A stretch of 64,000 nucleotides of DNA from Bacillus sp. AZ43 (GTDB lineage: Bacteria; Actinomycetota; Actinomycetes; Mycobacteriales; Geodermatophilaceae). The stretch spans positions 1-64,000 of the forward strand of contig SPQJ01000002.1 of NCBI GenBank assembly GCA_004570425.1. The letters run 5' to 3'. Position 1 is the first letter of the stretch. Each line of letters opens with the position of its first letter. A model generated the notes under the pieces. That model saw nothing but the letters and a program-made list of their open reading frames with translations. It made no database searches and was not told where the DNA came from. A program made the position numbers and the translations under genes. This document shows positions 24,779 through 27,117 of this stretch, in pieces.

Positions 24779-26023
24779 GTGGGCCGGATCGTCGACGCAG
24801 TGCTGCCGCCCCGCATGGGGACGCCGTTCCGCTGGCTGGTCGGCTCCGCCTGGGTGGGCAACCTGGGCGACGGCATCGCGCTCGCCGCGGGACCGCTGCT
24901 GGTCGCGTCGCAGACGTCCGACCCGCTCCTCGTCGCCCTGGCCGGGCTGCTGCAGCGCCTGCCCTGGCTGCTGTTCGGGCTGCACGCGGGCGTCCTGGCC
25001 GACCGGCTCGACCGCCGCCGGGTCGTGATCGTCGTCGACCTGATGCGGGCGCTCGTCCTCGCCGTCCTGGTCGCGGCCCTGCTCACCGACGCCGTGAACG
25101 TGCCGGTCGTCCTGGGCGCCGTGTTCCTGCTGGGCGTCGCGGAGGTCTTCGTCGACACCACGACGGCGACGCTGATGCCGATGGTCGTGCCGAAGGCGGA
25201 CCTCGGCATCGGCAACGCCCGGCTGATGACGGCCGGGATCACCATGAACCAGCTGATCGGGCCGGCGGTCGGGGCCGCCCTCTTCGCCGCCGGGATCGCC
25301 TGGCCGTTCGTCGTCCAGGTGGTGTGCCTGCTGCTCGGGGCGGTGCTGATCTCGCGGATGACCGTCCCGCGGCTGCCCGCGCCGGAGGGGCCGCGGCACG
25401 TCGGACGGGACATCGCCGAGGGGTTCCGGTGGACGTGGCACAACCCCGCCGTCCGCACCCTGACGCTCACGATCGTCACGTTCAACGTCACCTACGGCGC
25501 CGCCTGGTCGGTGCTGGTGCTCTACGCGACCGAGACGCTGGACATGGGCGCGATCGGCTTCGGCCTGCTCACCACCGTGGGCGCGGTCGGCGGCCTGCTC
25601 GGGACGGCCGGCTACGACTGGCTCGAGCGGCGCGCCAGCCTGGCCCGGATCATGCGGGTCGGGCTGGTGATCGAGACGTTCACCCACCTGGGCTTCGCGC
25701 TCACCACCACCCCGTGGGTCGCGCTCGCGATCATGTTCGTCTTCGGCGCGCACGCGTTCGTGTGGGGGACGACGTCGCGCACCGTCCGGATGCGGGCGGT
25801 GCCGCACGCGCTGCAGGGCCGGGTGGGCAGCCTGTACTCGATCGGCGTCTTCGGCGGCATCGTCGTCGGCCAGGCGCTGGGCGGGGTCATCGCCAGGGTC
25901 TGGGGGATCACCGGCCCGTTCTGGTTCGCCTTCGTGGGCTCGGCGGTCATCCTGGTGCTCATCTGGCGCGGGCTGGCGCACATCGCGCACGCCGACGAGG
26001 AGGCGCTCGCGCGTGAGGCTTGA
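24779..26023 (+). CDS. MFS transporter
   Basis: A 414-residue major facilitator protein with about twelve membrane segments and the loop motif GVLADRLDRRRVVIVVD between helices 2 and 3. The N-terminal GSAWVGNLGDGIALAAGPLLVASQT pattern is typical of the enterobactin-exporter-like/MFS_3 group. Substrate unknown. GTG start after a TAGGCT element 10 bases upstream. The MerR-type operator of the next gene overlaps its last codons, so the MerR-clamp protein may control or be read through from this gene. Confidence 0.88.
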   Translation: MGRIVDAVLPPRMGTPFRWLVGSAWVGNLGDGIALAAGPLLVASQTSDPLLVALAGLLQRLPWLLFGLHAGVLADRLDRRRVVIVVDLMRALVLAVLVAALLTDAVNVPVVLGAVFLLGVAEVFVDTTTATLMPMVVPKADLGIGNARLMTAGITMNQLIGPAVGAALFAAGIAWPFVVQVVCLLLGAVLISRMTVPRLPAPEGPRHVGRDIAEGFRWTWHNPAVRTLTLTIVTFNVTYGAAWSVLVLYATETLDMGAIGFGLLTTVGAVGGLLGTAGYDWLERRASLARIMRVGLVIETFTHLGFALTTTPWVALAIMFVFGAHAFVWGTTSRTVRMRAVPHALQGRVGSLYSIGVFGGIVVGQALGGVIARVWGITGPFWFAFVGSAVILVLIWRGLAHIAHADEEALAREA

Positions 26024-26041
26024 CCCTCGACCGGGTCGAGG
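26020..26041 (+). promoter_or_regulatory. MerR-type operator/promoter
   Basis: TTGACC (26020-26025) runs into a perfect palindrome CCTCGAC-CGG-GTCGAGG (26025-26041), the layout of MerR-family operators overlapping the -35/-10 spacer. It straddles the stop of the MFS gene and lies 17 bases before the MerR-clamp ATG. Confidence 0.6.
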
Positions 26042-26057
26042 CCGGACGGTCGTCCCC

Positions 26058-27065
26058 ATGGAGGAGCACGTGCGCGGGATCGGCCGCATGGCCCGGGAGT
26101 CGGGGCTGACGGTGAGCGCCCTGCGGTTCTACGACGGCGCCGGAGTGCTGGTGCCGGCCCGCGTGGACCCGCACAGCGGCTACCGCTGGTACACCGACGA
26201 CCAGGTCGTCTCGGCGCGGCTGATCGCCCGGCTGCGCCGGGTCGGCATGCGGCTGGCCGACATCTGCCGGGTCCTCGAGCACCGCGACGACCCGGTCGTG
26301 GTGGACGAGGTCCTGCGGGCGCACCTGACGCGCCTGGAGGACGGCCTGGCCGACGCCCGCCGCGAGCTCTCCGCCGCCCGAGCCCTACTCGACCTGGAGA
26401 GCCGCATGACGACCACGATCCGCACCACCGCCGCCGAACTGCGCCGCGCCCTGTCCGCCGTCCGCCACGCCGTCGGCACCGACCCCGAGCTGCCCATGCT
26501 CACCGGCGTCCTGCTCGACGCGACCGAGGGCGACCCGCGCCTGGTCGCCACCGACCGCTACCGGCTGGCGCTGCGCGCGCTGCCGGGCGCGGCCGTGGAG
26601 GGCGAACCGCTCGCGGTCCTGCTGCCGACGGCCCTCGTCGACGAGGCGCTCGCGTCACTGGAGGACGGCGAGGTGACCGTGCGGGTGGACGGCCCGTCGA
26701 TCGCCATCGGCGACCTGCGCGGGCAGCGTCTGGACCACGACTTCCCCGACTACCGCCGGATCCTGCGCGACGCCGGGGAGCAGCGGATCGACGTCGACGT
26801 CGCCGCCTTCCGCTCCGAGCTGGCCGCGGCGCCCACCCGGGCCGTGCCGACCGGTCCGGGCGGCGCCGAGGAGATCGCAACGGTTCTGACGCTGGGCGGT
26901 CTGGAGATGGGCGTGAACCGCGAGTTCCTGCTGCAGGCGCTGGACGCCGGGGACGCCGGCCAGCTCGTGCTGGACCTCGACGGGCCGCTCGCCCCGCTGG
27001 CGATCCACGACCCTCGACGCCCCGGCGACGTCGACCTGCTCATGCCCATCCGCCTGACGGCGTGA
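26058..27065 (+). CDS. MerR transcriptional regulator fused to DNA polymerase III beta-clamp-like domains
   Basis: A 335-residue fusion. Residues ~6-75 are a MerR helix-turn-helix plus wing (IGRMARESGLTVSALRFYDGAGVL, then SGYRWYTDDQV and ARLIARLRRVGM). A helical coil follows at ~76-118. From ~124 the chain resembles a sliding clamp: AAELRRALSAVRHAV...LPMLTGVLLDAT...LVATDRYRLALRALPG, and at the end VNREFLLQALDAG...LLMPIRL, matching the last DnaN domain. At ~210 residues it is shorter than the three-domain DnaN, so one domain is missing or reduced. Known MerR proteins carry ligand-binding domains here. The ATG at 26058 follows a MerR-type operator. Partner or ligand unknown. Confidence 0.8.
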   Translation: MEEHVRGIGRMARESGLTVSALRFYDGAGVLVPARVDPHSGYRWYTDDQVVSARLIARLRRVGMRLADICRVLEHRDDPVVVDEVLRAHLTRLEDGLADARRELSAARALLDLESRMTTTIRTTAAELRRALSAVRHAVGTDPELPMLTGVLLDATEGDPRLVATDRYRLALRALPGAAVEGEPLAVLLPTALVDEALASLEDGEVTVRVDGPSIAIGDLRGQRLDHDFPDYRRILRDAGEQRIDVDVAAFRSELAAAPTRAVPTGPGGAEEIATVLTLGGLEMGVNREFLLQALDAGDAGQLVLDLDGPLAPLAIHDPRRPGDVDLLMPIRLTA

Positions 27066-27070
27066 TCGTC

Positions 27071-27117
27071 GTGCGCTGGTCCACCCCATCCGCCCGCGAT
27101 GAGGTGGACCAGCGCAC
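27071..27117. terminator. Bidirectional terminator hairpin
   Basis: A perfect 15-base stem (GTGCGCTGGTCCACC with GGTGGACCAGCGCAC) and 17-base loop, filling the gap between the convergent MerR-clamp and acyl-CoA dehydrogenase genes. Confidence 0.7.

Follow-up and report, generated by a model that had tools for sequence, protein, structure and literature searches.

The locus described here raises the question of what a MerR-type regulator senses, and what it controls, when its C-terminal region resembles the sliding clamp DnaN. The gene lies in a 64,000 nt stretch of DNA, the whole of which was analysed and is referred to as the window. The initial annotation had placed an open reading frame with MerR and clamp domains behind an operator, and all of these were found at the positions given for them by frame, Pfam, and palindrome checks. 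Absent from it were the translation start inside the gene, the spread of the gene over several genera, and the Micromonospora operator sites upstream of dnaN and MFS genes. Together these point to a sensor and decoy of the TipA kind. The reading preferred here, with a probability of roughly one half (0.52), is that the gene would control itself as TipA does and would supply both a sensor of clamp-binding compounds and a decoy for them, with the pocket of the clamp module as the ligand site; such a ligand would induce the gene and would be sequestered by the decoy.

A literature search by title and abstract opening found no description of a MerR-DnaN fusion. The main text of a 2024 beta-clamp review does not contain 'MerR', and MerR and DnaN are named separately in the available portion of PMC6344877.

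Domain structure and pocket

The regulator and its parts are as follows.

26058..27065, forward strand: full-length MerR-clamp regulator, 335 aa, with a probably leaderless start at ATG 26058, judged from promoter spacing
26079..26279, forward strand: MerR DNA-binding domain, residues 8-74 (Pfam MerR_1, E 5e-13)
26292..26399, forward strand: long helix, residues 79-114, presumed dimer coil (secondary structure of the AlphaFold2 model)
26409..26777, forward strand: clamp domain 2, residues 118-240, border approximate (Pfam, PDB, and model)
26778..27062, forward strand: clamp domain 3, shortened, residues 241-335, border approximate (weak by sequence, E 0.024; clear in the model)
26550..26567, forward strand: pocket residues T165-L170, matching E. 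coli T172-L177 in sequence
26745..26762, forward strand: pocket residues P230-I235, matching E. coli P242-V247 in sequence
27036..27056, forward strand: C-terminal pocket edge LLMPIRL, residues 327-333 (E. coli V360-L366), with L328, M329, and P330 the same in all aligned members

The longest open frame starts at GTG 26013, and the homologs begin at the position equivalent to 26058. The MerR_1 match scores 49.3 bits against a cut-off of 21.6, showing that an N-terminal MerR helix-turn-helix is present. The helix that follows is seen in a monomer model only, and its role as a dimer coil is presumed from the MerR family. Beyond it, residues 126-210 match the Pfam model DNA_pol3_beta_2 (E 2.5e-11) and also DNA_pol3_beta, the model for domain 1 (E 6e-6), and residues 270-332 match DNA_pol3_beta_3 under its cut-off (E 0.024). 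The NCBIfam dnaN model gives E 1.5e-18 and 66.9 bits, under its cut-off of 137.65. A sequence search of the PDB returned mostly beta clamps (best E 8e-14). In the AlphaFold2 model, which has a mean pLDDT of 90.6, residues 118-333 match clamps and correspond to E. coli DnaN 125-366. Pfam gave no match to the TipAS domain (PF07739) at E up to 1, but clamp matches instead.

The claim that a MerR domain is followed by a clamp-like region is borne out by Pfam, the PDB search, and the model. The two checks proposed with it agree: the predicted structure folds like DnaN domains over residues 118-333, and profile searches return clamp Pfam models as well as NCBIfam dnaN, the latter below cut-off. The clamp fold of the C-terminal region is therefore well supported by sequence and model. 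The further proposal of a partial ring is not supported because the window protein lacks domain 1 and has a shortened domain 3.

The positions of the DnaN-type peptide pocket between domains 2 and 3 are kept in the sequence. The list of E. coli pocket residues used for this draws in part on general background. The 17 pocket positions have a mean entropy of 0.41 bits, compared with 1.35 bits for the rest of the module (p 9e-7, kinship ignored). Residues D166, P230, P313, L328, M329, and P330 are identical in all 77 aligned members. The conservation is uneven; L327 and I331 vary, and E. coli Arg365 is kept in 68/77. Such conservation fits the binding of peptides as well as that of drugs. The griselimycin site is between DnaN domains II and III, in a pocket that also binds replication proteins, as described in the available text of PMC5694481. 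That of PMC10817943 gives Met362 and Arg365 for the binding of mycoplanecin.

The MerR-clamp protein thus resembles DnaN in its peptide pocket and in the way domains 2 and 3 fold, and differs from it in lacking domain 1, in its shortened domain 3, in its fusion to a DNA-binding regulator, and in scoring below the dnaN cut-off. In the clamp ring, domain 3 faces domain 1 of the other subunit. As domain 3 is kept, the module, whether free or fused, might pair with domain 1 of DnaN and modulate the ring. This is highly improbable given the shortened domain 3 and missing domain 1 of the window protein, and it is at the pocket that conservation stands out.

Distribution, promoter, and a predicted internal translation start

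A genome scan identified at least 79 homologous loci, some genomes occurring under two handles in this and the other locus and genome counts. The MerR-clamp gene is therefore more than a chance occurrence. Identities among the matches listed are 64-71% for Blastococcus, about 40-53% for Micromonospora and Streptomyces, and 35-38% for Rhodococcus, with a few others. From the 79 listed loci, 76 proteins of at least 320 aa were obtained once L060, L082, and L086, which are broken or partial, had been dropped. In a sample of the phylum, the gene is present in 6 of 396 genomes at E 1e-35 or better, including that of the window. A sample of the Micromonospora-type genus has it in 143 of 151 genomes at E 1e-40. 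Few genomes of the phylum therefore have the gene, whereas almost all of that genus do. In a plasmid collection, 5 of 72,556 records matched at E 1e-25, three of them annotated only as MerR family regulator, and a phage collection gave no match at E 1e-10.

Clustering of the neighbouring open frames at 76 loci (frames of at least 120 aa passing a base-composition filter, within 4.5 kb) found no neighbour family recurring widely across genera. The largest family is an acyl-CoA dehydrogenase (8/8 Blastococcus and 1 Streptomyces), and another large one is a seryl-tRNA synthetase-like gene, named by eye (7/12 Micromonospora). The MFS frame upstream of the regulator in the window, which ends at 26023, was considered as a partner and rejected as a general rule: a homologous gene is present in the fetched flank of only 2/8 other Blastococcus loci, and the window operator stands downstream of the MFS frame.

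The control elements, the second start, and a repeat behind the gene are as follows.

26020..26025, forward strand: -35 element TTGACC, conserved in homologs
26025..26041, no strand assigned: operator palindrome CCTCGACC-G-GGTCGAGG, a perfect 8+1+8 inverted repeat
26045..26050, forward strand: proposed -10 GACGGT, 19 nt after the -35, placed from homologs
26396..26399, forward strand: internal Shine-Dalgarno GGAG, 6 nt before the internal ATG, conserved
26406..27065, forward strand: predicted short product, a free clamp module of 219 aa, from the internal ATG, a conserved start codon
27071..27117, no strand assigned: inverted repeat with 20-nt arms, perhaps a convergent terminator

A terminator scan found none, the repeat at 27071..27117 included.

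Promoters of MerR regulators have a dyad between the -35 and -10 elements and a spacer of 19-20 nt. The window promoter has this layout, with TTGACC, 19 nt, and the putative -10. In 72 of 77 aligned members TTGAC[C/T]CTC stands 37-39 nt before the start, and 70 of these match the pattern of the exact scans. The five members that lack this arrangement are four from Rhodococcus and the frameshifted copy L081. Inspection by eye places the dyad after the -35, then a -10-like hexamer at 19 nt (CAGAGT, CAGGAT, GACGGT, or similar), and about 7 nt to a GTG or ATG. This conserved operator-promoter, ending at a probably leaderless start, is a new feature at the level of sequence.

With up to 3 mismatches the operator pattern occurs once in the window, compared with 0.02 expected from shuffles. 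Across the 4.06 Mb genome of the window organism the gene's own operator is the sole site below 3 mismatches; seven further sites have exactly 3, and no operator was found there besides that of the regulator gene. In the phylum sample, the pattern is present in 7 of the 396 genomes, these being 6/6 carriers of the gene and 1/390 others (Fisher p 1.4e-12, kinship ignored). In the one non-carrier, G358, it precedes an unrelated frame. An exact-pattern scan of 48 genomes found one site (37) or none (1) in each of 38 non-Micromonospora genomes, and extra sites in 7/10 Micromonospora genomes. The putative autoregulation suggested by the initial annotation, through an operator with a TTGACC -35, is supported by this conservation. 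For the window organism, self-control alone is supported by the sequence; the links to dnaN and MFS genes come from another genus.

A second start codon precedes the clamp module. At the position of window residue 117, all 73 aligned non-Rhodococcus members have a start codon (68 ATG, 4 GTG, 1 TTG), counted with the 4 Rhodococcus rows set aside and the frameshifted L081 kept. All 73 have GGAG before it, at a spacing of 6 nt in 71. The codon preceding GAG has G as its third base in 72/72, while encoding seven different amino acids. Where it encodes Arg, it is AGG in 36/47, compared with 2.6% of Arg codons elsewhere in these genes; the binomial test on this excess ignores kinship, as does the codon-probability product for the internal start. 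Among 35 further loci, some from genomes already counted, all 35 have GGAG and a start, and 32 have the exact operator immediately upstream. On a tree of 106 distinct proteins, parsimony gives 9 changes of start state, two or so of which are absences (Rhodococcus and the mis-set row L081). This conserved internal start is a new feature of the sequence, and is read as kept by selection so that the clamp module is also translated separately, as in TipAL/TipAS, giving a predicted short product.

It could be that the protein is a multidrug MerR regulator of the usual sort except for its ligand domain, that its internal start is unused or minor, and that there is no decoy. The DNA-binding domain and operator layout are typical, the latter being like that of the BmrR/Mta type. 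All 4 Rhodococcus members lack the internal start and members of a second subfamily also do without it, which both favours this explanation and counts against a decoy. However, the conservation of start codon, GGAG, spacing, and the rare AGG is hard to explain without internal translation, making this explanation quite improbable. The BmrR/Mta multidrug regulators resemble the MerR-clamp protein in operator layout, in DNA-binding domain, and, through Micromonospora, in sites before MFS exporters. They differ in having an unrelated ligand domain, GyrI-like or TipAS in the available part of PMC7762955.

The second subfamily of MerR-clamp proteins is diverged and has a different operator (L257-L260). 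Such relatives (36-40% identity) are present in 4/8 non-carriers of the genus sample, one of them cut short. Their own operator is TTGACCTTCAGGTTGGTTGAAGG or similar, and they have no GGAG-ATG internal start. This operator occurs at one site per genome in 6/7 genomes, in four of which it is the gene's own. It was considered as a second route to dnaN and rejected, no second site having been found.

Operator sites before dnaN and other genes in Micromonospora

The exact operator is present in 137 of the 151 genomes of the genus sample, made up of 136/143 carriers and 1/8 others. A dnaN-type pattern, consisting of a slightly looser operator with the DnaA box TTGTCCACA at a set distance, is present in 99 of the 151, one of which lacks the gene; among these 99, dnaN itself is confirmed downstream in the fetched loci only. 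Of 300 genomes from the family, 72 have the pattern; all 72 are of one genus, and the other 43 of the 44 genera are without it.

The first 16 extra-site loci fetched include seven sites leading to dnaN, seven to a leaderless MFS gene, and one to a YunG-like gene. In each of the seven dnaN loci, dnaN is on the same strand as the site and starts some 690-700 nt beyond it; L105 and L106 among them have TGGACC instead of TTGACC. The MFS protein of the window matches five of the seven MFS loci at E 1e-6. A second fetch covered 40 non-self sites from the top 42 of the list, excluding two in G539, a genome already included under another handle. Here 17 sites are before dnaN (688-704 nt, same strand), 6 before an MFS gene, and 17 before others. 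The 17 others, which include ten with a TPR-like gene, four with a YunG-like gene, and two with a different MFS gene, were sorted by eye, and Pfam was applied to one protein each of the TPR-like and YunG-like kinds.

These observations bear on the chief rival of the sensor and decoy, which is that the regulator is a clamp homeostat or replication-stress sensor. Its pocket would read free clamp-binding proteins or peptides, and its output would be the level of dnaN, with no antibiotic involved. The dnaN sites in Micromonospora are as such a homeostat would have them, the gene is carried by 143/151 genomes of that genus, and the conserved pocket is one that also binds replication proteins (PMC5694481, as available). 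However, there is a single exact site in the window genome and in 37/38 non-Micromonospora genomes, the operator is shared by MFS genes in Micromonospora, and the gene is present in only 6/396 genomes of the phylum sample. The homeostat is therefore considered unlikely. The near-universality in Micromonospora does fit a housekeeping role as well.

The dnaN and other sites might instead belong to another MerR paralogue using the same operator, with the MerR-clamp regulator controlling itself only. Other MerR proteins with a similar DNA-binding part are encoded in the genomes, and sites are also found before TPR-like, YunG-like, and second MFS-type genes. Against this, operator presence follows gene presence, and the operator is absent from 7/8 Micromonospora-type genomes without a close homolog, a comparison confounded by kinship. 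Ownership by a paralogue is rather improbable.

The TPR-like genes behind the operator in Micromonospora are small and leaderless (L228, L212). The YunG-like genes behind it are in L224, L239, L240, L249, and L137, and the L249 protein matches PF24585. In 22/22 dnaN-type sites (L211, L216, and 20 others) there is a GTG at +37 or +38, where leaderless genes start; 2 of 24 dnaN-site loci without a DnaA box in reach were excluded from this count. Despite the GTG, the frame behind these sites was not accepted as a coding gene because its open length varies from 56 to 146 codons.

A candidate sensor and decoy for clamp-binding compounds

For the sensor and decoy, the following mechanism is proposed. 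The regulator would act as a stand-alone, autoregulated unit and bind its ligand in the pocket that clamp domains 2 and 3 form between them. In the unliganded state, a dimer would occupy its own promoter with the 19-nt spacer. A compound filling the pocket would make the regulator distort the promoter and turn transcription on, the likeliest ligand being a natural product of the griselimycin or mycoplanecin kind. The mRNA would then be read twice, from its leaderless first codon to give the regulator and from the internal Shine-Dalgarno start to give a decoy, the clamp module on its own. The switch may in Micromonospora also drive dnaN, providing more target, and an MFS exporter.

A clamp-binding compound fits best because of the operator, which we take to be of the drug-type MerR kind, the two-start design, the single-gene layout, the patchy presence in the phylum, and the Micromonospora sites before dnaN and exporters. 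That the biology of Micromonospora informs the window gene is something we infer. Counting against this sensor and decoy, the dnaN-type sites are in one genus only and there are none beyond its own in the window genome; nor does the model explain the sites before TPR-like and YunG-like genes.

In the TipA class (TipAL/TipAS, SkgA, AlbA), the MerR head and the single-gene minimal system are as here, as is autoregulation, predicted for the MerR-clamp gene. Production of the ligand domain alone from an internal start is also shared, here as a prediction only. The differences are that clamp domains 2-3 stand in place of the TipAS domain and that in Micromonospora the operator is also before dnaN. 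TipA has two isoforms from two start codons (PMC7762955, available part).

The available text of PMC10817943 describes the griselimycin and mycoplanecin biosynthetic clusters as containing dnaN, which in the mycoplanecin producer is a second copy; these DnaN-encoding genes are GriR and MypR. Like them, the MerR-clamp gene provides one more clamp-like protein, which could give protection from compounds that bind the clamp. GriR and MypR are described as genes for DnaN within clusters, whereas here a partial clamp (domains 2-3) is under its own sensor. In mycobacteria, griselimycin resistance depended on amplifying a region with dnaN and the origin (PMC5694481, in the part available). It is put forward more tentatively that the locus is a self-contained immunity switch, a copy of an essential target serving as both sensor and decoy, that clamp-binding antibiotics induce a transcript yielding the regulator as well as the free clamp mimic, and that in Micromonospora the real clamp is raised through an origin-region promoter.

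If the sensor and decoy reading is true, actinomycetes carry a dedicated sensor of clamp inhibitors. Such natural products would then seem common, and a reporter for finding them would be ready. The TipA principle would extend to a domain from an essential replication protein, and a transcription switch would be tied directly to dnaN expression at the origin.

The one Rhodococcus locus read, L078, has the operator before a 150-aa gene (L078:5532-5984), with the regulator after it. This gene has TPR matches below cut-off and looks related to the TPR-like genes of Micromonospora. Broken, split, or partial copies of the regulator gene are found at L060, L081, L082, and L086 and in G461, G494, G581, G605, and G603, which suggests that the gene is being lost in places.
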